Below, in pieces: positions 20,115-40,412 of a stretch of 64,000 nucleotides of DNA (positions within the stretch are counted from its first letter, which is position 1; each line of letters opens with the position of its first letter). The stretch comes from Phytohabitans rumicis (lineage in GTDB: Bacteria > Actinomycetota > Actinomycetes > Mycobacteriales > Micromonosporaceae), in assembly GCF_011764445.1 (NCBI RefSeq), contig NZ_BLPG01000001.1, positions 1,054,001 through 1,118,000 of the forward strand. The letters are read 5' to 3'. The position numbers and the translations under genes were made by a program. The notes beneath the pieces are model-generated. The model was not told where the DNA came from. It did no database searches and saw only the letters and a list, made by a program, of their open reading frames with translations.

Positions 20115-21428
20115 TCACCGAGGCTGGGGGATCATGAGGAGTTCGTGGGGATGAAGCGTGGTCTCTGCTGCCGCTTGAACGCTGCTGCCGGGCTTGGTGC
20201 CAAGCCTCCATCTCTGCATCACCGTGCCGAGAATGACCTCGAGCTCACGCCAGGCGAACGCTTCCCCGATGCACGCCTTCGGCCCGATTCCAAACGGGAT
20301 GTACGAGGTGTCGTCCCCAGCACCAGGTCGAAAGGAAAGCCACCGATCGGGGTCGAACCGGTGCGCGTCCGGGTAGCGGTCGGAGTTTCTGTGCAGCAGA
20401 TACGAACTGAATATTACATTCACACCCTCGGGAAGCAGGTGATCACCTAGTGAGATGCTCGAACGGGTCTTTCGACACGCGATCCACACGGGCGGGTAGA
20501 GTCGCAGAATCTCCATCAGGAACCGGAAGGTGTAGCTGGAGCGCTCTATGCCGTGCGCAGCGCCTTCGTTTCCCGCTTTGGGCATGTCTTCGAAGAGTTT
20601 TTCCTCGATCAAGGGCTCTTCGGAGAGCACGTACAGAGCCCATGACATCACGGAAGCCATGGTGGCCGTCGCCGCGATAAGCATCATTATCGCCTCGTCG
20701 CAGATTTGGTCCACCGTCAGGACGCGTTCGCCGGTTTCGTCGGTGTCCAACAGCAGCGCCGAGAGGTAGCCGGCCGCAGAGTCTGGACGACGCAACTGCT
20801 CGTCCACGTACGAAAAGAGCAGCTTCCGAACCTCTTCGCGTGCCTGCGCCGGCTGCCCCGACGGCAGCCCGTAGGGCTGTGCGGGGGTGGCCACCTTTCC
20901 GTACAGGGGCTTCCTGATCGTCTCCAGGATCAGGGCGGCAAGGCGATCACTGAGATCTCTCGACGGCTCGGGAAATGGACTCGGGAAGAGAGCAGCCAGG
21001 GCGATCGCACCCGAAATCCAGCACATCTCGTTCTGGATGTCCACAAGATCCCCAGCATGCCAGGAGGCTACTGCATCAGAAACGATGCGGCGCATGGTCG
21101 GGACGTATTCATCGACCTTCGCCACCCGCAGGAACGGATTCGACAATCGCCGATAGTGTCGATGCGAAGCCTCGTCCTCCAGGAGAAGCCCCGCCCTGCT
21201 GATGTTTCTGCCCTTCTGGAAGAGGTCGCCTCTTACATATTTCCTACTGTCTTTCACCTGTATTGCGCGGATCAGGGTCGGGTCATTGATAAATACGGCG
21301 TCGATGCCATCTACCGTCACCTGACCCACCGGACGGCCCTGGAGGATCTCCTCCATCCGGTTGAAATGAAACTCCGCTTTACCTGAGAGTCCGGTTGTCA
21401 AGTCCAGGTGACTCTTCAACGTACTCAC
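20115..21428 (-). CDS. Cytochrome P450
   Basis: 437 residues from a GTG. The haem loop FGIGPKACIGEAFAWRE supplies the Cys ligand, EILR gives the ExxR motif and PDRW follows as expected. In the I-helix the usual acid-Thr pair (AGxDT or AGxET) reads IAATATMAS: the Thr is kept but the acidic residue is Ala. That is unusual and can signal altered oxygen activation. It lies between the O-methyltransferase and GPP methyltransferase genes, so hydroxylation of the terpenoid chain or naphthoquinone is likely. The redox partner is not encoded nearby. Confidence 0.9.
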   Translation of the reverse strand: MSTLKSHLDLTTGLSGKAEFHFNRMEEILQGRPVGQVTVDGIDAVFINDPTLIRAIQVKDSRKYVRGDLFQKGRNISRAGLLLEDEASHRHYRRLSNPFLRVAKVDEYVPTMRRIVSDAVASWHAGDLVDIQNEMCWISGAIALAALFPSPFPEPSRDLSDRLAALILETIRKPLYGKVATPAQPYGLPSGQPAQAREEVRKLLFSYVDEQLRRPDSAAGYLSALLLDTDETGERVLTVDQICDEAIMMLIAATATMASVMSWALYVLSEEPLIEEKLFEDMPKAGNEGAAHGIERSSYTFRFLMEILRLYPPVWIACRKTRSSISLGDHLLPEGVNVIFSSYLLHRNSDRYPDAHRFDPDRWLSFRPGAGDDTSYIPFGIGPKACIGEAFAWRELEVILGTVMQRWRLGTKPGSSVQAAAETTLHPHELLMIPQPR

Positions 21429-21500: not shown

Positions 21501-22349
21501 TCACACGCGGTCGGCGCCGATCAGGAGGTACTGGAAGCTGCCGTTGCGGTACGCCTCGAGGAACGGCTCCTCGATGCCGGTGGCCACCGGCGACTTCGCC
21601 CGCAGTTCCCAGTAGGGAATCGTCGCCGGGGTGAGGTCCACAACGGCGAACGGGACGAGGCGGTTGTTCGCCATCTCGCGGAAGTACGACGACCGCGGGT
21701 GGATGCTGCAGATGTAGTGCGCGTTGATCTGGCTGACCGCCCGGGACGGCATGCCGTAGGCGTCGTTGTAGCAGCCGGTGATCGTGACGTAGCGGCCGCC
21801 GCGGGCCAGCAGCCGGGAGTGGGCCGCGAAGAGCAGGGAGAGCTCGACGTACATCGTGGACTCGTTGTTCCAGATCGCCTTGTAGGCGCCCGGCTCAAAG
21901 CCGGTGTCCAGCATGTTCTTCAGGTGGAACCGCACTTTGTCGGCCACACCGCGCTGCCTGGCCTGCTCGTTGGCGAAGGACACCTGCCCCTCGGAGATCG
22001 AAACGCCATCGACGGAGCAGCCGAACCGCTGGTTCGCCATGAAGCTCGTGCCGCCGCGACCGCAACCGGCGTCCATGATCCGGTCTTCGGGTCCTACGTC
22101 GCCGAGGTGGTCGATGAGATAAGACGCCTGGACCGACTCCAGGCGGTGCATCTCCTCGATGACTCGCTTCTCCCAGGTCTCCGTGGAGCCCTCGAACACG
22201 GCCTGGTCGACGTCGCCGATGCCGTAGTGGTGGTGGTACGTGCCGTCCACGTCCCCCAGCTTGATATTGACCGGGTCCTTCTCCCGGTTCCAGTAGTCGG
22301 CAACCGACTGCTGGTAGGGGCTCCTGAGGGCGAGGGACTCTGTTGCCAT
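21501..22349 (-). CDS. Geranyl diphosphate C-methyltransferase-like enzyme
   Basis: 282 residues from the ATG at 22349 with AAGGAGA upstream. It shows the hallmarks I know from GPP 2-methyltransferases (the 2-methylisoborneol family): KDPVNIKLGDVDGTYHHHYG near the N-terminus, the SAM loop DAGCGRGGTSFMANQRFGC, WNNESTMYVELSLLF, GCYNDAYGMPSRAVSQINAHY and IPYWELRAKS. Members methylate C2 of GPP; the relative BezA methylates C6. Here there is no terpene cyclase, only aromatic prenyltransferases, so a C11 methyl-geranyl donor for naphthalene prenylation is the natural inference. Confidence 0.78.
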   Translation of the reverse strand: MATESLALRSPYQQSVADYWNREKDPVNIKLGDVDGTYHHHYGIGDVDQAVFEGSTETWEKRVIEEMHRLESVQASYLIDHLGDVGPEDRIMDAGCGRGGTSFMANQRFGCSVDGVSISEGQVSFANEQARQRGVADKVRFHLKNMLDTGFEPGAYKAIWNNESTMYVELSLLFAAHSRLLARGGRYVTITGCYNDAYGMPSRAVSQINAHYICSIHPRSSYFREMANNRLVPFAVVDLTPATIPYWELRAKSPVATGIEEPFLEAYRNGSFQYLLIGADRV

Positions 22350-22384: not shown

Positions 22385-23941
22385 TCAGTCCTCGGCGTCG
22401 CCGCTGATGTACCGCTGCATGAACTCGTAGGCCAGGTCGCCGCACTGCCCGCCGAACTCGATGGACCGCTCGATCGTCTTCCGGAAATGCACCCCACCCC
22501 ACACCCGGCTGATGCCGCAGTCCTGCACGAGGTCGGTCCAGGTTGGCCAGTGCAGCTCGATGTTGTTGGCGGGTGTGATTCCCGGCTCCACCAGCGTCCA
22601 GCCGGCGGGAATGGGGAACCGCCAATCCAGGACGTCATCGCCGAAGAAGCGCCGCACCGCCTGCGCTTCGGCGGAACAGAGCGTCGTGGAGCCCGACGGG
22701 TACTCCGGGTGATCTCCGACGTTCAGGTAGCTGGCCCACTCGTCGGCACGAATGTCGTGGACCGTCCCCTTGCCCGGTCCGCCCCAGGCGGTCAGCCGCC
22801 GGCTCCCGTACACGTGCCGGATCGCGCTGAACGGCCGCACCGCGTCGTACTTGGCCTTCTGATGCCAGACCGCGACCAACGCGTCGTAGACAGCCGTGTT
22901 GTGAATCGTCAACAGGTGAACCCAGCTGTGCAGGTCGAGATTGCGCTTGCGGGCTACGACCGCTGGCGGCTGGCCGATACCGATCAGCTTGTTGTCGAAG
23001 AACTCGGCCATCGCTTTCTGTTTGTCGGTGAGCGAGGCCGAGGCTTCCAGCATCTCGTCGACCGAACGCTTGTAGTCCCTACGCCGGTGGTGGTCGGTGT
23101 GGTCGGGTGGGGCGAGCCGGAACTGAGCGGGGCTCTTGTAGGAGTAGGGCTTGGCCAGCCGCATTTGCGGCGTGACGAAGTGCTGGATGGTGTATATGCC
23201 CTTGTCCCCCACGCCCGCGCCGAGGCGGCGGCGGTGGGGCGTCAACTGCGGCTGCCAGCGGGACGGGTTGGTCAGCTTGAAGGCGGTGTTCACCGGCCGG
23301 TAGCCGGTGTAGTCCGCAAACGGCTGTGGGTTGTACCGGCGACCAATGTCACCCAGGATGTTCATGCCGTCCCGCGTGCGCGCCGCGGCGGCGCCCCGGC
23401 CGGCCAGGTTGCCGATGCCGACCGGAGTGGTCGGATCCACCGACTCGTCGTTGGGGTTCAAGCCAACTGAAGCCATCACCTGCCCGAAGAGGGGCGCCTG
23501 GTCCGGCACCGCGGATTTGAGCACCTGGTACGACGCGTGGAAAATGGCGATGTTCATGTTGCGGTTGGTGGTGGATTCGCTGGCCGGACGGCGGGGTATG
23601 CGGGTGTGCACGCCGACCGCGGTCGGATGGTAGGGCGCCACCGCATCGAACCACGCGATCACCGTCGACTGGGTGAACCAGATGAACAGGGTCACGTCCA
23701 TGGGCGCGAAGAACTTCAGCGAGGACGAATCCCTGATGCTCTCGTCGGGGGGAAACATCAGGTTGAGGGCGATGTCGGTGTCGAAGTCGAACGCGGGCGC
23801 GGCCAGCGCGGCGGACGAATCGGCGGCGGCCGCACCGGGCAGACCAAACACCAGCGCCGCCGCACCGCCCGCCCCACCGAGCAGCAGCGACCTGCGCTGC
23901 AACGACAGATCTGACACCGGAGAACTTCCGGACGTCGTCAT
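22385..23941 (-). CDS. Vanadium-dependent haloperoxidase paralogue 1
   Basis: 518 residues with a twin-arginine-like leader (LQRRSLLLGGAGGAAAL) and the PAP2/haloperoxidase core. The vanadate pocket is intact: Lys-x6-Arg in HQKAKYDAVRP, PSGS in EYPSGSTTLCSAEAQ (Ser where classic enzymes have His, as in the napyradiomycin subgroup) and SRVWGGVHF with the axial His. It also keeps the Lys of FFDNKLIGIG, probably the counterpart of the catalytic Lys324 of NapH1. A chlorinating or cyclising meroterpenoid haloperoxidase is expected. Its N-terminus is very close to that of paralogue 4. The leader AAAGGACGCACACC precedes the ATG. Confidence 0.9.
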   Translation of the reverse strand: MTTSGSSPVSDLSLQRRSLLLGGAGGAAALVFGLPGAAAADSSAALAAPAFDFDTDIALNLMFPPDESIRDSSSLKFFAPMDVTLFIWFTQSTVIAWFDAVAPYHPTAVGVHTRIPRRPASESTTNRNMNIAIFHASYQVLKSAVPDQAPLFGQVMASVGLNPNDESVDPTTPVGIGNLAGRGAAAARTRDGMNILGDIGRRYNPQPFADYTGYRPVNTAFKLTNPSRWQPQLTPHRRRLGAGVGDKGIYTIQHFVTPQMRLAKPYSYKSPAQFRLAPPDHTDHHRRRDYKRSVDEMLEASASLTDKQKAMAEFFDNKLIGIGQPPAVVARKRNLDLHSWVHLLTIHNTAVYDALVAVWHQKAKYDAVRPFSAIRHVYGSRRLTAWGGPGKGTVHDIRADEWASYLNVGDHPEYPSGSTTLCSAEAQAVRRFFGDDVLDWRFPIPAGWTLVEPGITPANNIELHWPTWTDLVQDCGISRVWGGVHFRKTIERSIEFGGQCGDLAYEFMQRYISGDAED

Positions 23942-23983
23942 GGTGTGCGTCCTTTCGTGGTAAAGGAACTGGCTTGGTGGAGG

Positions 23984-25536
23984 TCAGTCCTCAACGTCAC
24001 CGTCGACGTACCGCTGCACGAACTCATGGGCCCGGTCGCCGAACTGCTCACCGAACCCGATGGACCGCTCGACCGTCTTCCGGAAATGCACCCCGCCCCA
24101 CACCCGACTGATGGCACAGTCATTGACAAGGTCGGTCCAGGTTGGCCAGTGCAAAACGACCGGGCTGGCTGGAGTGATCCCCGCCTCCACCTGCGTCCAG
24201 CCGGCCGGAGCGGTAAACGTCCAGTCCAGGGCGTCGTCGTCGAAGAGGCGCCGCGCCGTCTGCGACCCCGCGGAGCAGATCGCCGCCCAGCCCGACGGGT
24301 ACTCGGGGTGGTCCCCGTGTTCAGGTAGCTGGCCCATTCGTCGGCGGGCATGTCGTGGACCGTTCCCTTGCCGGGGCCGCCCCAGGCGGTCACCGGGCGG
24401 TGGCCGTACACGTGCCGGATCGCGCTGGCCGGCCGCACCGCGTCGTACCGGGCCTTCTGATGCCAGATCGCGATCACCGCGTCGATGATCGCCGTCGAGT
24501 GCGCAAGGAACAGCTGAGCCCAGCCGTGTAGGCCCAGCTCCTTGTGGCGCCGCGCCGTGGCTACGGCCGCGTGGCCGATGCCCAGCTGCGTGTTGTCGAA
24601 GAGCTCCGCCATCACCTTCTGCGCGTCGGTGAGCGCGGCCGACGCCGCCAGGACCTCGTCGACCGAGCGCTTGTACTCCCCGCGCCGGTGGTGGTCGGTG
24701 AAGTCGGGCGGAGCGAGCCGGAACTGAGCAGGATCCTGGAAGGTATAGGGCTTTATCAGCCGCATTTGCGGCGTGGCGAAGTGCTGGACGGTGAAGACGC
24801 CCTTGTCGGCCGTGCCCGCGCCGAGACGGCGGCGGTGCGGGGTCAGCTGCGGCTGCCAACGCGACGGGTTGGTCAGCTCGTAGGCGGTGTTCACCGGCTG
24901 ATAGCCGGTGTAGTCCGCGAACGGCCGCGGGTTGTACCGGCGACCGTCGTCACCCAGCAGGTTCATGCCATCCCGGGCGCGGGCCGCGATCACGCCCTTT
25001 CCGGCCAGGTTGCCGATGCCGACCGGAGTGGTCGGATCCTCCGACTCGTCGTTGGGGTTCAAGCCGACCGCGACCATCAGTCGCGCGAGCTCCGGCAACA
25101 CCTCCGGCACCAGGGCTTTGATCATTTGGTACGAGGAGTGGAAGATGCCGATGTTCATGTTGCGGTTGGTGGCCGACTCGCTGGCGGGGCGGCGTGCGAC
25201 CCGGGTGTACACGCCAACCGCGGTCGGGTGGTAGGGCGCGACCGTGTCGAACCACGCGATCGCCGACACGTGGTTGACCCAGGCTGACGTCAGGTCCATG
25301 GGGGCGTACGCGCCCGCCGAGGGCTGTTGCCCGGCCCTCGCGTCGGGTTGGAACGAGATATCGATGCCGTTGCCGGTATCGAAGTCGAAGATGGGCGGTT
25401 GAGGGGGATCGGCTGCGGCCGCCGCCGTACCGTGCCCGAGCATGGCCAGCCCAACGGCACCGCCGACCCCGCCGAGCAGCAGCGACCTGCGCCGCAACGA
25501 CAAGTCCGACACCGGAGAACGTCCGGACGTCGTCAT
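23984..25536 (-). CDS. Vanadium-haloperoxidase-like paralogue 2 (frameshifted, altered pocket)
   Basis: About 517 residues once a one-base loss near 24318 is repaired: ASYLNTG then DHPEYPSG continues in the next frame, and CACGGGG(G)ACC restores it. The leader is RRRSLLLGGVGGAVGLAM. The Lys-x6-Arg pair (HQKARYDAVRP) and the axial His (SRVWGGVHF) remain, but the PSGS serine is Trp (PSGWAAICSAG) and the DNK lysine is Thr (FDNTQLGIG). These changes in the halogenating centre make a non-halogenating role likely, by analogy with NapH3, a family member known to act as an alpha-hydroxyketone isomerase. Confidence 0.85.
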
Positions 25537-25574
25537 GGTGTGCGTCCTTCCTTCAAGGAACCGGCTTCGGTGGG

Positions 25575-27119
25575 TCAGTCGACGTCGCCGTTGACGTGCC
25601 GCTGCACGAACTCGTGGACCAGATCACCGAACTGCTCACCGAACTCGATGGACCGCTCGACCGTCTTCCGGAAGTGCACCCCACCCCACACCCGGCTGCT
25701 GGCACAGTCGTTCACGTAGTCGGTCCACGTTGGCCAGTACAGCTGGATGTCGCTCGCGGGGGTGATCCCTGCCTCCACCCGCGTCTTGCCCGCCGGCCAG
25801 GTGAACCTCCAGTCGAGGCGGTCATCGCCGAAGAAGCGCCGGGTCACCTGCGCCGCCGCGGAGAAGGTCGTCGTGGAGCCGGACGGGTACTCGGGGTGGT
25901 CACCCACGTTCAGGTAGCTGGCCCACTCGTCGGCGGGCATGTCGTGGACCGTCCCCTTGCCGGGGCCGCCCCAGGCGGTCACCGAGCGATGGCCGTACAC
26001 GTGCCGGATCGCGCTGGCCGGCCGCACCGCGTCGTACTTGAGCTTCTGGTGCCAGCACGCGATCGCCGCGTCGAGCGTCGCCAACAAGTGCGCCAGCTGA
26101 TACTGAACCCAGCCGTGGATGCCGAGCTCGGGGTGGTGCCGAGACTTGATCAGCGCCGAATGGGTGAGGCCCAGAATCTTGTCGTCGAAGACCTCCGCCT
26201 TCACCTTCTGCTCGTCGGTGAGCCCGGCGGACACTTCCAGCATCTCGTCGACGGACCGCTTGTAGTCTTTGCGCCGGCGGTGGTCGGTGAAGTCGGGCGG
26301 GGCGAGCCGGAACTGAGCCGGATCCCGGAAGGTGTATGGCCTGACCAGCCTTATCTGCGGCGTGATGATGTGCTGGACGATGTAGACGCCCTTGTCACCC
26401 GTCCCCGCGCCGAGGCGGCGGCGGTGCGGGGTCAGCTGCGGCTGCCAGCGCGACGGGTTGGTCAGCTCGTAGGCGGTGTTCACCGGCTGATAGCCGGTGT
26501 AGTCCGCGAACGGCCGCGGGTTGTACCGGCGACCGATGTCACCCAGCAGGTTCATGCCATCCCGCGCACGGGCCGCGGCCACGCCCTTGCCAGCCAGGTT
26601 GCCGATGCCGACCGGACTGGTCGGATCCACCGACTCGTCGTCCGGATTCAGGCCGAACGCCTTCAGCAGTTGCGCGAAGAGCGGTGCCTGCTCCGGCAAC
26701 ACACCCTTCACCGCTTGGTACTGGGCGTGGAGGATGGCGACGTTCAGGTTGCGGTTGGTGGCGGATTCGCTGCTGGGGCGGCGCGGTATCCGGGTGTACA
26801 CACCAACCGCGGTCGGGTGGTAGGGCGCCACCGCGTCGAACGCCGCGATGGGCGTGAAGTGGCCGATCCAGATGAACACCGGCAGATCCATGGGCGCAAC
26901 GACCTCCGCCCGAGGGTTCGGCGCGAGTTCGTCGGTGGGCTGTACGAAATCCATGATGTTGCCGGTGTCGAAGTCGAAATCGGACGGCTGAGGATCGGCG
27001 GCGGCCGCGGCCGTGCTGTTCCCCAGCGTGGCCAGCGCCGCGGCACCGCCGACACCACCGAGCAGCAGCGACCTGCGCCGCAACGACGAACCTGACACCG
27101 GAGAAAGCTCAAACGCCAT
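25575..27119 (-). CDS. Vanadium-dependent haloperoxidase paralogue 3
   Basis: 514 residues, leader SSLRRRSLLLGGVGGAAAL. The pocket is complete: HQKLKYDAVRP, EYPSGSTTTFSAAAQ and SRVWGGVHFRK. The extra lysine is present but in a variant setting, VFDDKILGLTHS, rather than FFDNKxLGIG, and the following segment (ALIKSRHHPELGIHGWVQYQ) is the most divergent of the set, so substrate contacts may differ. A predicted halogenating enzyme on a prenylated naphthoquinone. The conserved upstream GTCCT/AGGAC leader is retained in altered form. Confidence 0.9.
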   Translation of the reverse strand: MAFELSPVSGSSLRRRSLLLGGVGGAAALATLGNSTAAAAADPQPSDFDFDTGNIMDFVQPTDELAPNPRAEVVAPMDLPVFIWIGHFTPIAAFDAVAPYHPTAVGVYTRIPRRPSSESATNRNLNVAILHAQYQAVKGVLPEQAPLFAQLLKAFGLNPDDESVDPTSPVGIGNLAGKGVAAARARDGMNLLGDIGRRYNPRPFADYTGYQPVNTAYELTNPSRWQPQLTPHRRRLGAGTGDKGVYIVQHIITPQIRLVRPYTFRDPAQFRLAPPDFTDHRRRKDYKRSVDEMLEVSAGLTDEQKVKAEVFDDKILGLTHSALIKSRHHPELGIHGWVQYQLAHLLATLDAAIACWHQKLKYDAVRPASAIRHVYGHRSVTAWGGPGKGTVHDMPADEWASYLNVGDHPEYPSGSTTTFSAAAQVTRRFFGDDRLDWRFTWPAGKTRVEAGITPASDIQLYWPTWTDYVNDCASSRVWGGVHFRKTVERSIEFGEQFGDLVHEFVQRHVNGDVD

Positions 27120-27163
27120 GGTGTGCGTCCTCTTCTTTAAGGAAATGGCTCTTGGAAAGGGCG

Positions 27164-28723
27164 TCAGTCCCCGAGTTCGCCCCGGACGTGCCGCTGCACG
27201 AACTCGTAGACGCGGTCGCCGAACTGCTCGCCAAACTCGATGGACCGCTCAACCGTCTTCCGGAAATGCACCCCGCCCCACACCCGGCTATTGGCGCAGT
27301 TGTTCACGTAGTCGGTCCAGGTGGGGAAGTACAACTCGATGGCGGTGGCGGGGGTGATTCCTGGCTCCACGTCCGTCCAGCCGGCTGGAACCGGGAACCG
27401 CCAGCCCAAGGCGTCACTGCCGAAGAAGCGCCGCTTCGCCTGCGCCGACGCCGAGCAGAGCGTCGTGGAACCCGACGGATACTCCGGGTGGTCCCCTACG
27501 TTCAGGTAGCTGGCCCACTCGCCGGCCGGCAGGTCGTGGACCGTCCCCTTGCCGGGTCCGCCCCAGGCGGTCACCCGCCGGCTGCCGTACACGTGCCGGA
27601 CCGCGCTGAACGGCCGCACCGCGTCGTACTTGACTTTCTGATGCCAAGCGGCGATCAGCGGCTCGAACGTCGCCAAGACATGCAGCGCGAACAGATGAGC
27701 CCAACCGTGGATGCCCAGATCGGGGTGCTGCCGCGCCGCGACGACCGCCGCGTGGCCGATGCCTAGGATCTTGTTGTCGAAGAACTCCGTGAGCACCTTC
27801 TGCTTGTCGGTGAGCGCGGCCGACGCTTCCAGGATCTCGTCCACCGAACGCTTGTAGATCGAGCGCCGGTGGTGATCGCTGTGGTCGGGCGGGGCGAGGC
27901 GGAACTGAGCGGGATCCCGGAAGGTGTAGGGCTTGACCAAGCCCATCTGCGGGGTGACGAAGTGCTGGACGGTGAAGATGCCCTTGTCACCCGGCCCCGC
28001 GCCGAGGCGTCGGCGATGGGGAGCGAGCTGCGGTTGCCAGCGTGAAGGGTTGGTCAGCTTGAAGGCGGTGTTCACCGGCCGGTAACCGGTGTAGTCCGCG
28101 AACGGCTGAGGGTTGTACCGGCGACCCACGTCGCCGACCATGTTCATGCCGTCCTGCCTTCGGGCCGCGACGACGCCCTTGCCGGCCAGGTTGCCGATGC
28201 CCACCGCACTGGTCGGATCCACCGATTCGTCGTCGGGGTTGAGGCCGAGCACTGTCATCATTTGCCGGACGACCTGTTGCTGCTCCGGCACCACGCCCTT
28301 GACCACTTGGTACTGGGCGTGGATGAGGGCGATGTTCATGTTCCGGTTGGTCGCGGACTCGCTGGAGGGGCGCCGGCGGATCCGGGTGCATATGCCGACC
28401 GCGGTCGAGTGGTACGGCGCCACGGCGTCGAACCATGCCACCGCTGTCAACTGGCTGAACCAGAGGAAGATCGTCACGTCCATGGGGGCGAAAATGGACG
28501 CTGAGGGCGACTGCCCGGCGGATTCGTCGGTGGGCTGAAAGAAGTCGATGAAGTTGCCGGTGTCGAAGTCGAACGCGGGCGCGGCCAGCGCGGCGGACGA
28601 ATCGGCGGCGGCCACACCGGGCAGACCAAACACCAGCGCCGCGGCACCGCCCGCCCCACCGAGCAACAGCGACCTGCGCTGCAACGACGAATCTGACACC
28701 GGAGAACGTCCGGACGTCGTCAT
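27164..28723 (-). CDS. Vanadium-dependent haloperoxidase paralogue 4
   Basis: 519 residues, leader LQRRSLLLGGAGGAAALVFG, nearly the same as paralogue 1 through residue 55. In its own numbering the pocket is Lys363-x6-Arg370, Pro416-Ser-Gly-Ser419, Arg480 and axial His486; Lys318 lies in FFDNKILGIG. All the residues needed for vanadate binding and for the lysine-based chlorine transfer proposed for NapH1 are present. Predicted substrate: a prenylated flaviolin derivative. A good reference copy for comparing the other seven. Confidence 0.9.
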   Translation of the reverse strand: MTTSGRSPVSDSSLQRRSLLLGGAGGAAALVFGLPGVAAADSSAALAAPAFDFDTGNFIDFFQPTDESAGQSPSASIFAPMDVTIFLWFSQLTAVAWFDAVAPYHSTAVGICTRIRRRPSSESATNRNMNIALIHAQYQVVKGVVPEQQQVVRQMMTVLGLNPDDESVDPTSAVGIGNLAGKGVVAARRQDGMNMVGDVGRRYNPQPFADYTGYRPVNTAFKLTNPSRWQPQLAPHRRRLGAGPGDKGIFTVQHFVTPQMGLVKPYTFRDPAQFRLAPPDHSDHHRRSIYKRSVDEILEASAALTDKQKVLTEFFDNKILGIGHAAVVAARQHPDLGIHGWAHLFALHVLATFEPLIAAWHQKVKYDAVRPFSAVRHVYGSRRVTAWGGPGKGTVHDLPAGEWASYLNVGDHPEYPSGSTTLCSASAQAKRRFFGSDALGWRFPVPAGWTDVEPGITPATAIELYFPTWTDYVNNCANSRVWGGVHFRKTVERSIEFGEQFGDRVYEFVQRHVRGELGD

Positions 28724-28751
28724 GGTGTATGTCCTTTCTATGAAGGGGAGG

Positions 28752-30311
28752 TCAGTCCTTGACGTCGCCGTCGATGTACCGCCGCACGTACTCGTAGGCC
28801 AGGTCGCCGAACTGCCCGCCGAACTCGATGGACCGCTCGATCGTCTTCCGGAAGTGCACGCCGCCCCAGACCCGGCTCATGCCGCAGTCCTTCACATAGG
28901 CGGTCCAGGTGGGCCAGTACAGCTCCATCGCGTTGGCGGGGGTGATCCCCGGCTCCACCAGTGTCCAACCGGCCGGGATGCGGAACCGCCAGTCCAGGAC
29001 GTCGTCGCCGAAGAAACGCCGGAGCGACTGCGCCGACGCGGAACAGAGCGTCGTGGAGCCGGACGGGTACTCGGGGTGGTCACCCACGTTCAGGTAGCTG
29101 GCCCACTCGTCGGCGGGCATGTCGTGGACCGTCCCCTTGCCGGGGCCGCCCCAGGCGGTCACCGAGCGATGGCCGTACACGTGCCGGATCGCGCTGGCCG
29201 GCCGCACCGCGTCGTACTTGGCCTTCTGATGCCACACCCCGACCAGCGCGTCGAAGACCGCCGTGGAGTCCACAAAGAACACGTGCGCCCAGCCTTGCAC
29301 GCCCAACTGCTGTTGCCGGTCGTGGTTTCGGCAGGCGACGGCCAGCGCCTGACCGATGCCCAGCAGCTTGTTGTCGAAGAACTCCGCGTTCACCTTCTGC
29401 GCGTCGGTGAGCCCGGCCGACGCCGCCAGCATCTCGTCGACCGAACGCTTGTAGTCCGCGCGACGGCGGTGGTCGGTGTGGTCGGGCGCGGCGAGCCGGA
29501 AACGGCTCGGGCTGTCGAAGGCGTTGGGCTTGACCAAGCCCATCTGCGGGGTGACGAAGTGCTGGACGGTGAAGACACCCTTGTCGGCCGTGCCCGCGCC
29601 GAGACGGCGGCGGTGCGGGGTCAGCTGCGGCTGCCAACGCGACGGGTTGGTCAGCTCGTAGGCGGTGTTCACCGGCTGATAGCCGGTGTAGTCCGCGAAC
29701 GGCCGCGGGTTGTACCGGCGACCGTCGTCACCCAACAGGTTCATGCCATCCCGGGCGCGGGCCGCGATCACGCCCTTTCCGGCCAGGTTGCCGATGCCGA
29801 CCGGAGTGGTCGGGTCCACCGACTCGTCGTCGGGGTTCAGGCCGAGCGTGGTGAGCATTTGCCGGATGACCGCCGTCTGCTCGGGCACCACGCCCTTGAC
29901 CACCTGGTATGAGGCATGGATGACGGCGATGTTCAGGTTGCGGTTGGTGGCCGACTCGGTGGCGGGGCGGCGGGCGAACCGCGTGTGCACACCGACCGCG
30001 GTCGGGTGATACGGCGCGACCGCGTCGAACCACGCCAGCACCGTCAGATGGTTGATCCAGATGAAGATGGTCACGTCCATGGGCGCGAAGATGCTCGCTG
30101 ACCGCGACACGCCAGCGTTCTCGTCGGTGGGCGAGAAGAAGTCGATGAAGTTGCCGGTGTCGAAGTCGAAAACGGGCGGCTCAGGAGCGGCGGCCGCCGC
30201 CGCGGCGTTTCCGAGCGTGGCCAGCGCCGCGGCACCACCGACGCCAGCGAGCAGCAGCGACCTGCGTCGCAATGACAAGTCTGGCACCGGAGAATGTCCG
30301 GACGTCGTCAT
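28752..30311 (-). CDS. Vanadium-dependent haloperoxidase paralogue 5
   Basis: 519 residues, leader LSLRRRSLLLAGVGGAAAL. Pocket residues intact (HQKAKYDAVRP, EYPSGSTTLCSASAQ, SRVWGGVHF) with FFDNKLLGIG. It has a short insertion after that lysine motif (CRNHDRQQQLGVQGW) not seen in the others. The central block from VGIGNLAGKGVIAARARDG to TADKGVFTVQHF is almost the same as in paralogue 2 at the DNA level, suggesting gene conversion. Predicted active halogenase or cyclase. Confidence 0.9.
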   Translation of the reverse strand: MTTSGHSPVPDLSLRRRSLLLAGVGGAAALATLGNAAAAAAAPEPPVFDFDTGNFIDFFSPTDENAGVSRSASIFAPMDVTIFIWINHLTVLAWFDAVAPYHPTAVGVHTRFARRPATESATNRNLNIAVIHASYQVVKGVVPEQTAVIRQMLTTLGLNPDDESVDPTTPVGIGNLAGKGVIAARARDGMNLLGDDGRRYNPRPFADYTGYQPVNTAYELTNPSRWQPQLTPHRRRLGAGTADKGVFTVQHFVTPQMGLVKPNAFDSPSRFRLAAPDHTDHRRRADYKRSVDEMLAASAGLTDAQKVNAEFFDNKLLGIGQALAVACRNHDRQQQLGVQGWAHVFFVDSTAVFDALVGVWHQKAKYDAVRPASAIRHVYGHRSVTAWGGPGKGTVHDMPADEWASYLNVGDHPEYPSGSTTLCSASAQSLRRFFGDDVLDWRFRIPAGWTLVEPGITPANAMELYWPTWTAYVKDCGMSRVWGGVHFRKTIERSIEFGGQFGDLAYEYVRRYIDGDVKD

Positions 30312-30350
30312 GGTGTGCCCTTTCTCGTAAAGGAACCGGCTTGGTTGAGG

Positions 30351-31871
30351 TCAGTCCTCGACATCGCCGTCGACGTGCCGGCGCATGAACTCATGGGCCT
30401 GGTCGCCGAACTGCTCTCCAAACTGGACGGACCGCTCCACCGTCTTCCGGAACTGCACGCCGCCCCATATCCGACTGCTGGCGCAGTCGTTCACGTGGTC
30501 GGTCCAGGTGGGCCAGTGCAGCTCGATGGCGCTGGCCGGGGTGATCGCTGGCTCCACCTGCGTCCAGCCGGCCCGTATCGGGAACCGCCAGCCCATGACG
30601 TCATCGCCGAGGAGACGACGCATCGCCTGCCCTGCCGCGGAGCAGATCGCCGCGGAGCTCGACGGGTACTCCGGGTGGTCCTCCACGTTCAGGTAGCTGG
30701 CCCACTCGTCGCCGGGCAGGTCGTGCACGGTGCCTTTGCCGGGGCCGCCCCAGGCGGTCACCGGGCGGTGGCCGTACACGTGCCGGATCGCGCTGAACGG
30801 CCGCACGGCGTCGTACTTGGCCTTGTAATGCCAGACCGCGATCAGCGTGTCGAAAACCGCCATCGCGTGCGTCAGGAACATCTGAGTCCAGCCGTCCAGG
30901 CCCAGCCCGTGCCGCCGAGCTGCGACTGCCGGCGAGTGGCCTATGCCCGCCGTGTTGTTGTCGAAGAACTCCGCCATCACCTTCTGCTCGTCGGTGAGTG
31001 CGGCCGACGCCTCCAGGACCTCGTCGACTGAGCGCTTGTAGGCCGTACGCCGATGGTGGTCGGTGTGGTCGGGCGGGGCGAGGTGGAACTGGCCCGGGTC
31101 CGCGTAGGTGTAGGGCTTGATCAACCCCAGCTGCGGCGCGATGAAGTGCTGGATGGTGAAGACGCCCTTGTCGCCGACGCCCGCGCCGAGGCGGCGGCGG
31201 TGCGGGGCCATCTGCGGCTGCCAGCGCGACGGGTTGGTCAGCTCATATGCGGTGTTCACCGGCTGGTAGCCGGTGTAGTCCGCGAACGGCCGCGGGTTGT
31301 ACCGGCGACCCTCGTCACCCAACAGGTTCATGCCGTCCCGCTCCCGGGAGGCGACCGCGCCCTTTCCCGCCAGGTTGCCGATGCCGACCGGACTGGTCGG
31401 ATCCACCGACTCGTCGGCAGGGTCTAAGCCGAGCACGGTCATCAGCTGCGCGAGCCCCGGCGCCTGCTCCGGCACACCAGCTTTGATCACTTGATAGGAG
31501 GCGTAGAGAAGGGCGATGTTCATGTTGCGGTTGGTGGCCGACTCGCTGGAGGGACGGCGGCCGACCCGCGTGCGTACGCCGACCGCGGTCGGGTGGTAAG
31601 GCGCGACCGCGTCGAACCACGCGATCGCCGACAGGTGCTTGACCCAGGCCCACATGGCCTCGTCCGAGGGGTTGAGAAACACCGTGGCGGGCGACTGCCC
31701 GACAGCCTCGTCGCCCTGGTTGATGTCGAGGGCGTTGCCGGTGTCGAAGTCAAAGTCAATCTGGGGTGCGGCGGCCATCGCGCTGTCTCTCGGCGTGGCC
31801 AGCGCCGCGGCGCCGCCGACCCCGCCGAGCAGCAGCGACCTGCGCCGCAACGACAAACCAAACGTTGCCAT
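30351..31871 (-). CDS. Vanadium-haloperoxidase-like paralogue 6 lacking the axial histidine
   Basis: 506 residues from the ATG at 31871 (MATFGLSLRRRSLLLGG). Lys-x6-Arg is kept (HYKAKYDAVRP). However, the axial vanadate ligand is Gln (SRIWGGVQF, codon CAG), the PSGS motif is PSSS (EYPSSSAAICSAAG) and the extra lysine is Asn (FFDNNTAGIG). Without the axial His, stable vanadate binding is not expected. The frame is open and full length, so this looks like a protein under a new constraint: a non-oxidative catalyst, a scaffold, or an early pseudogene. It shares the AAICSA signature with paralogue 2. Confidence 0.88.
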   Translation of the reverse strand: MATFGLSLRRRSLLLGGVGGAAALATPRDSAMAAAPQIDFDFDTGNALDINQGDEAVGQSPATVFLNPSDEAMWAWVKHLSAIAWFDAVAPYHPTAVGVRTRVGRRPSSESATNRNMNIALLYASYQVIKAGVPEQAPGLAQLMTVLGLDPADESVDPTSPVGIGNLAGKGAVASRERDGMNLLGDEGRRYNPRPFADYTGYQPVNTAYELTNPSRWQPQMAPHRRRLGAGVGDKGVFTIQHFIAPQLGLIKPYTYADPGQFHLAPPDHTDHHRRTAYKRSVDEVLEASAALTDEQKVMAEFFDNNTAGIGHSPAVAARRHGLGLDGWTQMFLTHAMAVFDTLIAVWHYKAKYDAVRPFSAIRHVYGHRPVTAWGGPGKGTVHDLPGDEWASYLNVEDHPEYPSSSAAICSAAGQAMRRLLGDDVMGWRFPIRAGWTQVEPAITPASAIELHWPTWTDHVNDCASSRIWGGVQFRKTVERSVQFGEQFGDQAHEFMRRHVDGDVED

Positions 31872-31890
31872 CGCGTGCGTCCCTTTCGTG

Positions 31891-33441
31891 TCAGTCCTCG
31901 ACGTCGCCGTTGATGTACCGCTGCGCGAACTCGTAGCCGCGGTCGCCGAACTGCGCGCCGAACTCGATGGACCGCTCGACCGTCTTCCGGAAGTGCACGC
32001 CGCCCCACACCCGGCTGAAGGCGCAGTCCCGCACGAATTCGGTCCAGGTCGGCCAGTGCAACTCGATCGCGTTGGTAGGGGTGATCCCCGCTTCCACCAG
32101 TGCCGAGCCGGCGGGAATGGGGAGCCGCCAGTCCAGGACGTCATCGCCCACGAAGCGCCGTACCGCCTGTGCCTCCGCGGAGCAGAGCGTCGTGGAACCC
32201 GACGGGTACTCGGGGTGGTCCGCCACGTTCAGGTAGCTGGTCCACTCGTCGGCGGGGATGTCGTTGACCGTCCCCTTGCCAATCCCGCCCCAGGCCCGCA
32301 CCGGGCGGTGGCCGTACACGTGCCGGATCGCGCTGAACGGCCGGACCGCGTCGTACGTGGTCTTCTGATGCCAGACCGCGACCAGCGCGTCGAAGACCGC
32401 CGTCGAGTGCGCCAGGAACAGCTGAACCCAGCCCTGCACGCCCAACTCCTGGTGGCGCCGAGCCACGACAGCCCGCGGCTGGCCGATGCCCAGCAGCTTG
32501 TTGTCGAAGAACTCCGCCATCACCTTCTGCGCGTCGGTGAGCGCGGCCGACGCCGCCAGGACCTCGTCGACCGAGCGCTTGTACTCCCCGCGCCGGTGGT
32601 GGTCGGTGTGATCGGGTGGAGCGAGCTGGAACTGGCCTGGATCCTCGTACGTGTAGGGCTTGACCAGCCGCAGCTGCGGCGTGACGAAATGCTGGACGGT
32701 GAAGACGCCCTTGTCGGCCACTCCCGCCCCGAGGCGGCGGCGGTGCGGGGTCAGCTGCGGCTGCCAACGTGACGGGTTGGTCAGCTCGTAGGCGGTGTTC
32801 ACCGGCTGATAGCCGGTGTAGTCCGCGAACGGCCGCGGGTTGTACCGGCGACCGACGTCACCCAACAGGTTCATGCCATCCCGCGCACGGGCCGCGATCA
32901 CGCCCTTGCCAGCCAGGTTGCCGATGCCGACCGGACTGGTCGGATCCACCGACTCGTCGGCGGGATTCAGGCCGAGCACGGTCATCAGCTGCCTGATCAC
33001 CGGCACCTGCTCCGGCACCACGACTTTGACCACTTGGAGTGAGGCGTGGAAGATGGCGATGTTCAGGTTGCGGTTGGTGGCCGACTCGCTGTCGGGACGG
33101 CGGCCGATCCGGGTGTACACACCGACCGCGGTCGAGTGGTAGGGCGCGACCGCGTCGAACCACGCGAGCACCGTCACGTGGTTGACCCAGAGAAACATGG
33201 TCACGTCCATGGGGCCGAGAACATCCGCTGAGGGCGTCGCCACGGCGGCGTCGTTGGCGGGTTGCAGCAAGTCGATGGCGTTGTCGGTGTCGAGGTCGAA
33301 GTCGATCTCGGGCGCCTGCGCGGCGGCCTTCGCGCCATCCGCCAGCATGGCCAGCGCCGCGGCGCCGCCGACCCCACCGAGCAGCAGCGACCTGCGCCGC
33401 AACGACAAACCAGACACCGGGGTACGTCCAAACGTCGCCAT
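31891..33441 (-). CDS. Vanadium-dependent haloperoxidase paralogue 7
   Basis: 516 residues from the ATG at 33441, leader LSLRRRSLLLGGVGGAAALAML. Pocket intact: HQKTTYDAVRP (the first Lys is the conserved one), EYPSGSTTLCSAEAQ, SRVWGGVHF and FFDNKLLGIG. Only 19 bases separate it from paralogue 6. Its upstream leader differs from the AAAGGACGCACACC type of most copies, and a 12-bp stem hairpin lies in the gap to paralogue 8. Predicted active enzyme. Confidence 0.9.
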   Translation of the reverse strand: MATFGRTPVSGLSLRRRSLLLGGVGGAAALAMLADGAKAAAQAPEIDFDLDTDNAIDLLQPANDAAVATPSADVLGPMDVTMFLWVNHVTVLAWFDAVAPYHSTAVGVYTRIGRRPDSESATNRNLNIAIFHASLQVVKVVVPEQVPVIRQLMTVLGLNPADESVDPTSPVGIGNLAGKGVIAARARDGMNLLGDVGRRYNPRPFADYTGYQPVNTAYELTNPSRWQPQLTPHRRRLGAGVADKGVFTVQHFVTPQLRLVKPYTYEDPGQFQLAPPDHTDHHRRGEYKRSVDEVLAASAALTDAQKVMAEFFDNKLLGIGQPRAVVARRHQELGVQGWVQLFLAHSTAVFDALVAVWHQKTTYDAVRPFSAIRHVYGHRPVRAWGGIGKGTVNDIPADEWTSYLNVADHPEYPSGSTTLCSAEAQAVRRFVGDDVLDWRLPIPAGSALVEAGITPTNAIELHWPTWTEFVRDCAFSRVWGGVHFRKTVERSIEFGAQFGDRGYEFAQRYINGDVED

Positions 33442-33484
33442 GGTGAGCCTCCCGTGTGTACCGGAACTGGCTTCCCTGAGGGGA

Positions 33485-33519
33485 ACGGCGGCGGGCCTGT
33501 GGGCTGTGCCCGCCGCCGT
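33485..33519. terminator. Hairpin between haloperoxidase paralogues 8 and 7
   Basis: A perfect 12-bp inverted repeat (33485-33496 with 33508-33519, stem ACGGCGGCGGGC, 11-nt loop), nine bases past the stop of paralogue 8. It is the only large hairpin in the haloperoxidase block. It may stop or attenuate transcription, or stabilise the upstream message, so that paralogue 8 and the genes before it are made in larger amount than 7-1. Confidence 0.55.
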
Positions 33520-33527
33520 CGCTGGGG

Positions 33528-35045
33528 TCAGTCCTCGACGTCGCCGTTGATGTACCGCTGCGCGAACCTGTAGGCGCGGTCGCCGAACTGCTCGCCGAAC
33601 TCGATGGACCGCTCGATCGTCTTCTTGAAGTGCACACCGCCCCACACCCGGCTGATGGCGCAGTCCTGCACGAAATCGGTCCAGGTGGGCCAGTGCAACT
33701 CGAGCGCGCTGGCGGGGGTGATCCCCGCCTCGACCGCAGTCCAGCCGGCCGGAATGGGGTACCGCCAGCCCAGGACGTCATCGCCCAAGAAATGCCGCGC
33801 CGCCTGTGCCTCCGCGGAGCAGAGCGTCGTGGAGCCCGACGGGTACTCCGGGTGGTCTCCGACGTTCAGGTAGCTGGTCCACTCGTCGGCGGGGATGTCG
33901 TTGACCGTCCCCTTGCCGACCCCACCCCAGGCGGTCACCCGCCGGTGGCCGTACACGTGCCGGATCGCGCTGAACGGCCGCGGTGCGTCGTACTTGGCCT
34001 TCTGGTGCCAGACCGCGACCAGCGCGTCGAAGATCGCCAACGAGGTCGTCAGGAACAGGTGGACCCAGCCGTCCAGGTCCAGCTCGGGGTGGGCGATGCC
34101 GGCGGCGATCCCCGCACGGCCGATGCCCAGCAGCTTGTCGTCGAAGAACTCCGCCTTCACCTTCCGCTCGTCGGTGAGCGCGGCCGACGCCCCCAGCATC
34201 TCGTCCACCGCGCGCTTGTAGTCCCTGACCCGGTGGTGGTCGCTGAACTCGGGCGGGGCGAGGCGGAACTGGCCGGGGTCCTTGAACGTGTATGGCTTGG
34301 TACGCCCCAGCTGCGGCGTGACGAAGTGCTGGACGGTGAAGATGCCCTTGTCACCGACGCCCGCGCCGTGGCGGCGGCGATGGGGCGTCAGCTGCGGCTG
34401 CCAGCGTGACGGGTTGACCAGTTTGAAGGCGGTGTTCACGGGCCGGTAGCCGGTGTAGTCCCGGTAGGGCACGGGGTTGTACCGGCGGCCCACGTCGCCG
34501 AGCTGGTTCATGCCGTCCCGCAGCCGGGCCGCGACCACGCCCTTGCCGGCCAGGTTGCCGATGCCGACCGGACTGGTCGGGTCCTCCGAGTTGTCGTCGG
34601 GGTTCAACCCGATCGCGGCCATCAGCGTCCGGAACGCCGGCAGCCGGTCCGGCGCCACGCCCTTGATCACCTGGAACGTGCCGTAGACGGCGGCGATGTT
34701 CCTGTTCCGGTTGGTGGCGGACTCGCTGGAGGGGCGGCGGCCGATCCGGGTGTACACGCCGACCGCGGTCGGGTGGTACGGCGCACACGCGTCGAACCAC
34801 GCGATCGACACCATGTGGGTGATCCGCATGTGCAGGGTCACGTCCATCGGGGCGACGTCCGGCAACGATCGCGAGTCGACCGCGCCGGACAGGTCCCGGA
34901 TGATGTTGCCGGTGTCGAGGTCAAAAGGAATCGGGGCCGCCGCGGCGAGCGGACCGGCGGTGGCCGTTCCCGGGTAACCCATGGCCAGGGCCGCGGCACC
35001 GCCGGCCCCACCGATCAGCACCGACCGGCGTCCGAGCGTTGTCAT
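33528..35045 (-). CDS. Vanadium-dependent haloperoxidase paralogue 8
   Basis: 505 residues from the ATG at 35045 (MTTLGRRSVLIGGAGGAAALAMG, a twin-arginine-like leader). Pocket intact: HQKAKYDAPRP, EYPSGSTTLCSAEAQ, SRVWGGVHFKK; the extra lysine lies in FFDDKLLGIG. It is the most divergent of the active-looking copies (PYRDYTGYRPVNTAFKLVNP, RHGAGVGDKG) and stands first in transcription order, directly after the prenyltransferase genes, so it may act first on the prenylated substrate. Inference only. Confidence 0.9.
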   Translation of the reverse strand: MTTLGRRSVLIGGAGGAAALAMGYPGTATAGPLAAAAPIPFDLDTGNIIRDLSGAVDSRSLPDVAPMDVTLHMRITHMVSIAWFDACAPYHPTAVGVYTRIGRRPSSESATNRNRNIAAVYGTFQVIKGVAPDRLPAFRTLMAAIGLNPDDNSEDPTSPVGIGNLAGKGVVAARLRDGMNQLGDVGRRYNPVPYRDYTGYRPVNTAFKLVNPSRWQPQLTPHRRRHGAGVGDKGIFTVQHFVTPQLGRTKPYTFKDPGQFRLAPPEFSDHHRVRDYKRAVDEMLGASAALTDERKVKAEFFDDKLLGIGRAGIAAGIAHPELDLDGWVHLFLTTSLAIFDALVAVWHQKAKYDAPRPFSAIRHVYGHRRVTAWGGVGKGTVNDIPADEWTSYLNVGDHPEYPSGSTTLCSAEAQAARHFLGDDVLGWRYPIPAGWTAVEAGITPASALELHWPTWTDFVQDCAISRVWGGVHFKKTIERSIEFGEQFGDRAYRFAQRYINGDVED

Positions 35046-35097: not shown

Positions 35098-36006
35098 CTA
35101 TTTCTCTTCTCCATGGGCCGCCATCATCATCTGCTGCGCCGGCGAAAGCTGGTAGTACGACACGAACTCGACGGCTTCCCCGCTGGCCGACCACTTGAGA
35201 CCAAGCAGATTGATGTGCTCGCCGGGGTAGGTGCGCGGAGCGCCAATCCTGAGCCGCTCGAACCCTGGTTCGAGGTGATCGGAGAGTACCGACGGATCGA
35301 GGCTGCGGGCCGGGAACTGAGCAAGAGCGATACGTGCGATCTCCGGCGAATCCCAGCTGAGGGTGACATTGACTCTGAACGCCTTTTGGGCGAACTCCAG
35401 CGCCTGCTGGCTCGGCGATGGCAGCCCGCATTCGCCGACCATCGACAGGACGGTCTCCCGTTCGAGAGGTTTAGGGGGCCGCTGGAAGTACAGGTTCATT
35501 GTCTTGCGCCCGTAGTCGATCGCGATCATCGCAACCTTGTCCAGGCCGTGCCGGTCGAAGAAGCTGGCATTCTCGCCCACCGCGCTCGGCATCGACGGGA
35601 TGTCGGCAAGCTCTGACACCTTCTGCATGTTCCGGGGGAAGTGTGCCAGGGTCTTCTTGAAGCCACCGACGACCCCACAGTCGATAAGGTGATCGCTGAT
35701 GGAAAGTCGCTTCCGGAGATCCGACAGCAGGGCGCCGACGGGGTGGTCCGTCTTGGCGACAAGGCCGTTCGACAGTGCGACGGCGTATGGGTCGTCGACG
35801 CTGGGCGAGACGGTCATGGTGTAGTCGAGCTCTCCCGCGCTGCGCTCACCGCTCAGCAATCCGAAACCAATCCCGGCCCCGGCGAGTGCGTCTTCGTACG
35901 CGGTCAGGATCGGCATGACCCTCCCGCGCGCGCAGGCCACGTCTGCCAGCCCAGCCGCCTCCTCGATTGCCGAGTACACACGTTCCAGCTCAGCGGCTCC
36001 GGACAT
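35098..36006 (-). CDS. ABBA-fold aromatic prenyltransferase (NphB/CloQ family), copy A
   Basis: 302 residues from an ATG with AGGAGG upstream. It aligns by eye along its whole length with NphB: VERVYxAxEEAAGL is ERVYSAIEEAAGLADVACAR here, then ELDYTMTVS (position of the NphB Mg-binding Asp62), GGFKKTLAHFP (diphosphate-binding Lys), IPSMPSAVGENASFF, GLDKV and MNLYF. Such soluble enzymes attach GPP or DMAPP to THN- or flaviolin-type rings. With the second copy, it suggests two prenyl additions, as in napyradiomycin-type compounds. Confidence 0.92.
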   Translation of the reverse strand: MSGAAELERVYSAIEEAAGLADVACARGRVMPILTAYEDALAGAGIGFGLLSGERSAGELDYTMTVSPSVDDPYAVALSNGLVAKTDHPVGALLSDLRKRLSISDHLIDCGVVGGFKKTLAHFPRNMQKVSELADIPSMPSAVGENASFFDRHGLDKVAMIAIDYGRKTMNLYFQRPPKPLERETVLSMVGECGLPSPSQQALEFAQKAFRVNVTLSWDSPEIARIALAQFPARSLDPSVLSDHLEPGFERLRIGAPRTYPGEHINLLGLKWSASGEAVEFVSYYQLSPAQQMMMAAHGEEK

Positions 36007-39706: not shown

Positions 39707-40240
39707 TCAGGAATTCAGCAGAGTGGGCGGTTCGTAGCGAAGCGGCGTGATCTGGCTAATGTCATAGCGGTCACGCAGTCGTTGCACGGCCTCCGGATCC
39801 ACCGATCGGCCGGCGCCGAAGATCTCAAAGATCTGCTCGAAGTAGCGCTCGTGATCGGGCGATGGATAGCTCTGAAACAGCATGCGTGCCGGCTTGTCGG
39901 TGGCGTTCCTGAAGGCGTGCGGGCATCCGGACGGGACGAACATGCAGCTACCCGCAACCGCGCTGACGACTTGACCCCCGCTGGAGGACTTCCAGTCGTG
40001 CCAGCTGTCCGCGGTGCGTTCGGCCGGCTCGAACGCCAGCAGCTCGAGCTGTCCTTCCAAGACGTAGAAGAACTCCTGCGCGTGCTGATGGCTGTGCGCT
40101 CCCACGTCGAAGCCGGGCGGAACCACCACCTCGAAGCACGAGACGGCGGAGCCCTGCGCCCCAGTGACCTTGAAGGTGACGTCCTGCGCCTTTGTGACCA
40201 GCCTTCGACCTTGACCAGGTAGGACTACGTGACCGCTCAT
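39707..40240 (-). CDS. Cupin, probable THN mono-oxygenase (flaviolin-forming)
   Basis: 177 residues from the ATG at 40240 with GAGGTG six bases upstream. The first cupin motif reads VGAHSHQHAQEFFYVLEGQ (two His and Glu metal ligands) and the second ends at GCPHAFRN. Cupins of the MomA type turn THN into flaviolin. Its position at the head of the tailoring operon, followed by the aminotransferase, fits that role. The frame extends further upstream to 40399 without a ribosome site, and that stretch is best read as the 5' leader of the promoter at 40384-40412. Confidence 0.85.
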   Translation of the reverse strand: MSGHVVLPGQGRRLVTKAQDVTFKVTGAQGSAVSCFEVVVPPGFDVGAHSHQHAQEFFYVLEGQLELLAFEPAERTADSWHDWKSSSGGQVVSAVAGSCMFVPSGCPHAFRNATDKPARMLFQSYPSPDHERYFEQIFEIFGAGRSVDPEAVQRLRDRYDISQITPLRYEPPTLLNS

Positions 40241-40383
40241 GCGGAACACCTCACGGCATCGAGAAGACCCGGCGAGACAACGTGCCACCACAGTGGACGA
40301 TGGGTGCTGCAGGGGATGAAGGGCACGTGGCGATGAATCGACGCCCAGAGCGTGCAGGAGGGCGGAATCGAGGTGCCATCGTA

Positions 40384-40412
40384 TGTATAGGTTCTTCACC
40401 GCTGGCTGTCAA
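40384..40412 (-). promoter_or_regulatory. Near-consensus sigma-70 promoter of the tailoring operon
   Basis: On the minus strand: TTGACA (40412-40407), exactly 17 bases, then TATACA (40389-40384). This is as close to consensus as any promoter in the window and leaves a leader of about 135 bases before the cupin ATG. It is the best candidate for driving the leftward block of cupin, aminotransferase, prenyltransferase and haloperoxidase genes. Confidence 0.78.

Follow-up and report, generated by a model that had tools for sequence, protein, structure and literature searches.

Eight tandem vanadium-haloperoxidase-family genes in a predicted tetrahydroxynaphthalene meroterpenoid cluster of Phytohabitans rumicis

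Haloperoxidases that halogenate selectively are prized as biocatalysts, and the determinants of their selectivity are poorly known. NapH1 and NapH3 (PDB 3w35, 8cxl) belong to the two-domain family considered here, and NapH3 works without vanadium. Three haloperoxidases are given for napyradiomycin and for a marinone-type candidate in the parts of PMC10897937 and PMC4650096 (Table 1) that deal with these compounds. The window that we analyzed, a stretch of 64,000 nucleotides from Phytohabitans rumicis (NZ_BLPG01000001.1, positions 1,054,001 to 1,118,000), carries eight vanadium haloperoxidase (VHPO) genes in tandem at 22385 to 35045 on the minus strand, against the three listed for the nap cluster in the same table. 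An earlier annotation made from the letters alone (the sequence-only reading) had put known clusters at two to four copies. Napyradiomycin and the marinone candidate agree with that range; Streptomyces sp. SBT349 (NZ_LAVK01000021.1), with five tandem copies and one more, does not. In the parts of the open-licence PMC literature consulted, no larger haloperoxidase array was found, and a larger one elsewhere is possible. What is new is the unusually large, recombining array; the enzymes and the cluster type are already known.

We favor, with a probability of about 0.6, the view that one NapH1-like vanadium chloroperoxidase underwent a tandem expansion specific to this lineage, within a tetrahydroxynaphthalene (THN) meroterpenoid cluster, and that its copies would have diverged in function. 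The copies are lettered A to H in order of rising coordinate, with starts placed at the ATG after each leader (lengths in amino acids [aa]).

22385..23941, minus strand: VHPO copy A, 518 aa, canonical motifs; PF22778 at 247.7 bits, PF21167
23938..25536, minus strand: VHPO copy B, with a frame shift near 24316; its C-terminal part is read with open reading frame (ORF) 23984-24859
25575..27119, minus strand: VHPO copy C, 514 aa, canonical motifs
27164..28723, minus strand: VHPO copy D, 519 aa, canonical motifs
28752..30311, minus strand: VHPO copy E, 519 aa, canonical motifs
30351..31871, minus strand: VHPO copy F, 506 aa; PSSS; final His replaced by Gln
31891..33441, minus strand: VHPO copy G, 516 aa, canonical motifs
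33528..35045, minus strand: VHPO copy H, 505 aa, canonical motifs; does not join the clade formed by the six other copies in the tree

All eight consecutive genes have Pfam matches to PF22778 (VCPO_2nd) and PF21167, and NapH3 and NapH1 are the nearest solved structures. The head-to-tail order on one strand and the family assignment of the sequence-only reading are thus borne out. PF21167 scored above its cut-off in every copy and PF22778 matched near full length in seven; copy B is split over two frames, and the claim of eight full-length paralogues holds for the other seven. In the host genome (10,714,690 bases, three contigs), PF22778 gave nine matches, which amount to these eight genes (one split) and none outside the array. 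A search of the same genome with PF01569 (PAP2) gave nine matches, none in the window; the array family lies beyond that model's reach. Gaps within the array run from -4 to 86 bp. Most copies had also been said to share a leader: a AAAGGACGCACACC-type leader is identical in A, B, C, and H (GGACGCACA) and nearly so in D, E, and F, whereas G departs. We read it as a duplicated ribosome-binding leader. This layout, with short spacing, one direction, and for the most part a single type of leader, would suit copies that only raise the amount of one enzyme, but this is improbable because the copies differ from each other at 24 to 34% of residues (positions 41 to 519), far beyond the needs of dosage.

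Divergence also argues against an assembly duplication, because duplicated contigs would be near-identical, whereas the seven intact copies are 76.2 to 83.9% identical in DNA. PMC7692728 reports PacBio RSII reads and Canu assembly for P. rumicis NBRC 108638, a genome of 10.71 Mb in three scaffolds, and for P. flavus, P. houttuyneae, and P. suffuscus. We infer that the sequenced strain is NBRC 108638. If so, the assembly is PacBio only. Congener assemblies from that study also have genes in or near the same cluster that look split by indels (L211, L214, and L216: a prenyltransferase, a large ORF at the flank, and a VHPO). Even with these points in its favor, an assembly artifact has a negligible chance of explaining copies that are at most 84% identical.

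The copies are 52 to 60% identical to NapH1 or NapH3 (67% to NapH1 for the second fragment of copy B), and copy H scores 631 bits to NapH3 and 608 to NapH1. They have in common with NapH1 the motifs K-x6-RP, PSGS, and SRVWGGVHF, and its twin-arginine N terminus, RRRSMLLGG, has a (Tat-like) counterpart in all eight copies, as judged by eye; the products are presumably exported. Six of the eight (A, C, D, E, G, and H) have the complete canonical set of K, R, PSG, R, and H, residues that we take to bind vanadate, with the final His as its ligand. For the conservation, block, and identical-run analyses, 11 distant rows were excluded from the controls, and the DNA controls were without NapH1 and NapH3. 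Each array row departs from the conserved columns at only 1 to 4 positions (120 columns for full rows; copy B, in two parts, at 3 of 93 and 2 of 27).

Copy B has 8 bases between CTGAAC and CACCC, where A, C, D, E, G, and H have 9. Its C-terminal part continues in another frame with GDHPEYPSGW...SRVWGGVHF, so that the motif set is complete across the two frames, with PSGW. Since this second part is still open and carries the motifs, the shift would be either recent or a sequencing error, perhaps an indel error of a PacBio-only assembly; the split genes in congener assemblies suggest that it may be of the same kind.

Copy F has HYK, PSSS for PSGS, and GGVQF for GGVHF, and so lacks the His of the vanadate site and the Gly of the PSG motif. 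By these residues it probably no longer halogenates and probably either does nonredox chemistry or is decaying. The final His is missing in 11 of the 80 tree rows that have a letter there: F (Q), one SBT349 array copy (N), one copy from Streptomyces sp. CNH099 (N), five more rows of the NapH3-type group, and three distant-clade rows. Loss of the ligand is therefore recurrent across the family, and F need not be junk. In the SBT349 array, one copy reads PSGY and VNF, and another reads PSSS. We tried F as the ortholog of the SBT349 PSSS/HYK copy, and neither whole-length nor segment identities single the pair out; the common residues may reflect convergence or masked ancestry. Two NapH3-group haloperoxidases (L064:12626-14134 and L147:1498-3531) have Ile for the vanadate-binding Lys.

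The frame shift in B and the lost ligand in F are what would be seen if the array expanded and decayed by recombination with most copies redundant, as is the presence, in two congeners (G002 and G005), of the biosynthetic core without an adjoining haloperoxidase. This account is unlikely given six copies with the full constellation, the few departures at conserved columns, the open second part of B, and a ratio of nonsynonymous to synonymous differences (pN/pS) of 0.59 among the copies. With pN at 0.171 and pS at 0.29, the copies look constrained.

We placed the copies in an 81-row tree, from which ORFs below 330 bits or with fewer than 350 matched residues, duplicates, and copy B (two fragments) were excluded. 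A, C, D, E, F, and G formed a clade of their own (99/96), which together with H and an Actinomadura row (L054) grouped with a 20-row NapH1-type clade (81/95). A phylogeny had been proposed in the sequence-only reading as a check; run here with NapH1 and NapH3, it left all seven window rows near the NapH1-type clade but outside it, and none of them inside the 22-row NapH3-type group. The copies therefore do not just reproduce the steps already known. In SBT349, the five tandem copies formed a separate clade (99/95), with the sixth elsewhere, so either the two lineages had already split when each array expanded, or concerted evolution masks an older orthology. An approximately unbiased (AU) test did not reject a tree in which the seven window copies were held together (P = 0.197).

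Long identical tracts show that array copies exchange DNA. The longest identical run was 172 bases for C and E, 114 for the first part of B and E (codon alignment; 157 in an array-only alignment), and 97 for B and G. Among 217 similarly divergent pairs from different organisms, no run exceeded 49 bases; in 360 pairs of a window copy with another sequence, the longest was 54, and between copies within the SBT349 set of six it was 77. In permutations over all variable sites, C/E and C/G were reached in 0 of 1,000, with values of 0.002 for D/E and 0.004 for A/D (uncorrected). Over silent codons, the P values were 0.0025 for B/E, 0.0095 for C/E, and 0.032 for C/G, all other pairs being above 0.2 (uncorrected).

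Divergence among the window copies is distributed in blocks. Per 30 residues, the window copies were about as different as those of separate organisms at 41 to 70 (0.54 versus 0.55) and 311 to 340 (0.48 versus 0.53), and half as divergent at 161 to 250 (0.14 to 0.17 versus 0.33 to 0.35). Dividing the divergence of the four most variable blocks by that of the four least variable gave a ratio of 3.08, against a mean of 1.96 and a maximum of 2.47 in 3,000 groups of seven organisms; these groups were more divergent overall (0.40 versus 0.29) and their rows overlap between draws, so that 0 of 3,000 is not a probability, a point that counts against the expansion reading. An earlier ratio, 3.53 versus 1.75, is weaker evidence, with blocks picked after inspection. 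In blocks 41 to 90 and 311 to 360 of the window, pN/pS is about 1.0, versus 0.79 and 0.77 in controls. GC content at third codon positions is extreme (0.88 to 0.96), which makes pS unreliable, and we therefore do not claim positive selection; selection for diversity may nevertheless have acted. The sequence-only reading had offered either successive distinct steps or a diversity-generating family. Sequence cannot separate the two, and the pattern of a homogenized framework with variable blocks favors the diversification of one progenitor.

Several further results weigh against a single, independent, and diversifying expansion. The pairing of H with L054 is a weak placement (84/76). In a 60-row tree (ORF matches of at least 500 bits and sufficient length plus three outgroup rows, copy B excluded), the window rows need three changes, with C outside the other five. 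A clade uniting the window copies with the five SBT349 copies was not rejected by the AU test (P = 0.20), so a wholly independent expansion is not proven. At silent sites, C/E fails correction for 21 pairs, and most pairs are without excess. The SBT349 block ratio, 2.28, lies inside the control range. Overall, window pN/pS is not above the between-organism control (0.65 in 206 pairs; about 1.1 in SBT349). An AlphaFold model from seven copies had a mean predicted local distance difference test (pLDDT) score of 32, too poor to place the variable blocks.

A fixed division of labor, in which each paralogue takes one successive step as NapH1, NapH3, and NapH4 do, draws on the use of several haloperoxidases by napyradiomycin and the marinone candidate (PMC10897937, relevant parts) and on the catalytic differences of F (PSSS, VQF), B (PSGW), and the two SBT349 copies. 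We regard it as doubtful, since NapH1 and NapH3 fall in separate clades with the window copies of the tree in neither, six copies have common canonical catalytic residues and several exchange DNA, and eight successive haloperoxidase steps exceed any pathway found.

The setting supports the THN meroterpenoid part of the expansion reading. On the same strand as the array lie the following genes.

39707..40399, minus strand: cupin (fur2-like); PF07883
38534..39667, minus strand: DegT-type aminotransferase (fur3-like); PF01041
37624..38565, minus strand: ABBA aromatic prenyltransferase PT2; PF11468
36022..37605, minus strand: AMP-forming ligase, fur5-like, diazotase-type candidate; PF00501, NF058622 match far below cut-off
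35098..36006, minus strand: ABBA aromatic prenyltransferase PT1; PF11468
21501..22349, minus strand: geranyl diphosphate (GPP) 2-C-methyltransferase, 282 aa; NF041943 at 521.5 bits, cut-off 400
20115..21428, minus strand: cytochrome P450; PF00067
19014..20087, minus strand: O-methyltransferase (fur4-like, by analogy); PF00891
13479..14987, minus strand: IspH/LytB; PF02401
12430..13482, minus strand: polyprenyl diphosphate synthase; PF00348
10479..12560, minus strand: 1-deoxy-D-xylulose 5-phosphate (DXP) synthase; PF13292
9328..10482, minus strand: IspG/GcpE; PF04551
5686..6753, minus strand: type III polyketide synthase (PKS), THN synthase candidate, 355 residues; PF00195/PF02797

The first five lie upstream of the array, the next three downstream, and the isoprenoid and PKS genes further downstream. 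In Table 3 of PMC9686526, furaquinocin fur1 to fur5 are listed as a type III PKS, cupin, aminotransferase, methyltransferase, and acyl-CoA ligase, as in the window; the word haloperoxidase is absent from that paper's main text. The non-mevalonate supply resembles that described for the marinone candidate in the corresponding part of PMC10897937. Judged by genes alone, a type III PKS, fur2-to-fur5 counterparts, ABBA prenyltransferases, and an isoprenoid supply are all present and support a THN meroterpenoid cluster with a furaquinocin-type core. The meroterpenoid setting of the sequence-only reading is upheld by this core, the two ABBA prenyltransferases, and the embedded non-mevalonate genes. 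Counterparts of the AMP-forming ligase occur in 9 of 12 genomes searched, its own included. The parts of PMC7692728 on P. rumicis clusters describe t3pks-2, with a 356-aa type III PKS, terpenoid genes, and no predicted product, and do not mention haloperoxidases. PMC12670698 compared clusters of three Phytohabitans, NZ_BLPG01000001 included; in its main text, VHPO, VCPO, and haloper do not occur, and vanadium occurs in reference titles only. Three adjoining cluster ORFs at 16391 to 18041 have no Pfam or NCBIfam match.

The GPP 2-C-methyltransferase gene, 35 bp downstream of copy A, is the sole NF041943 match over cut-off in the genome. In 2-methylisoborneol operons a terpene synthase stands beside such a gene, as in a congener (G004) with encapsulin, terpene synthase, and GPP methyltransferase in a row. 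No PF19086 terpene synthase lies near 21501 to 22349, the own-genome matches being only at C1:4.07 Mb and 5.81 Mb, and the gene does not sit in an operon of that kind. At the corresponding position, SBT349 carries a diverged homologue that scores 169.8 bits (cut-off 400). The simplest reading, suggested by this placement, is that 2-methyl-GPP feeds the prenyltransferases and yields an unusual C11 prenyl chain. No meroterpenoid with such a chain was found in the literature search, or by term in the review PMC10881772.

Under the proposed expansion, the core (type III PKS, cupin, aminotransferase, O-methyltransferase, and AMP-forming ligase) would make and modify a naphthol. The non-mevalonate genes and the prenyl synthase would supply a geranyl-type diphosphate, probably 2-C-methylated by the adjoining methyltransferase, and the two ABBA prenyltransferases would attach the chain. 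The haloperoxidases would then use peroxide to oxidize halide at bound vanadate, and would thereby chlorinate or cyclize the prenylated naphthoquinone, with intermediates or congeners divided among the divergent copies. Neighbors may be kept alike in framework by gene conversion and unequal exchange, while blocks at about 41 to 100, 131 to 160, and 311 to 370 stay nearly as different as between organisms. A more speculative version, which we hold only tentatively, is a diversity-generating family: one progenitor underwent two or more amplifications in different genera, neighbor conversion shuffles the framework under diverging blocks that face the substrate, each array re-evolved a vanadate-free, NapH3-like member (F in the window; PSGY/VNF in SBT349), and the window substrates carry a C11 2-methylgeranyl chain.

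We surveyed copy number in related genomes, scoring 8 to 9 candidates per genome in the family, class, and Streptomyces surveys, in which some assemblies are fragmented. Matches occurred in 53 of 354 genomes of the same family and in 23 of 394 in the class sample, with a maximum elsewhere of two in both. Among 392 genomes sampled as Streptomyces (genus inferred), 44 had a match, with totals that reach at least eight and at most three close together (up to three in G808, G937, G811, and G861). A further family (that of G427) gave 6 of 35, with a maximum of two. A contig-wide scan took in the best 80 of 106 confirmed stretches, at 79 loci. Beside the same core, we counted one VHPO in Micromonospora endophytica and in Saccharomonospora saliphila, two in Actinomadura livida, three on S. 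aculeolatus contig C74 (one cut by the contig end), five tandem plus one in SBT349, and eight in the window. G002 and G005 have none in the regions fetched with their cores (54 kb and 40 kb); VHPOs of a more distant type lie about 45 to 60 kb away (44% and 43 to 54% identity), that of G005 split over two frames. The most window-like VHPO of G002 (C1:347384) was rejected as a member of its core cluster, there being no core gene within the 60 kb fetched around it. A known cluster with the same array had been named as a possible refutation; no eight-gene array was found elsewhere in these surveys, and SBT349 is a near parallel.

Eight paralogues with one framework and few variable blocks amount to a natural experiment on site selectivity and on the loss of vanadium dependence, and a second array beside the same core, together with clusters of zero, one, two, and three copies, provides the comparison set. 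From the cluster, one would expect halogenated naphthoquinones that bear a C-methylated prenyl chain, in what is probably a culture-collection type strain.

The CNH099 cluster (L052), which we take to be marinone-type, has three VHPOs in three different clades beside PT1 and an O-methyltransferase (81% identity) on a 20.7-kb contig, with its AMP-forming ligase copies on other contigs. In SBT349, the core (type III PKS 87%, AMP-forming ligase 79 to 80%, O-methyltransferase 84%, DegT aminotransferase 84% identity) is accompanied by a P450, PT1, and the VHPOs, the sixth in opposite orientation. A DDE transposase gene (L050:7671-8510) lies between that P450 and PT1, beside the array, and is a possible agent of rearrangement.

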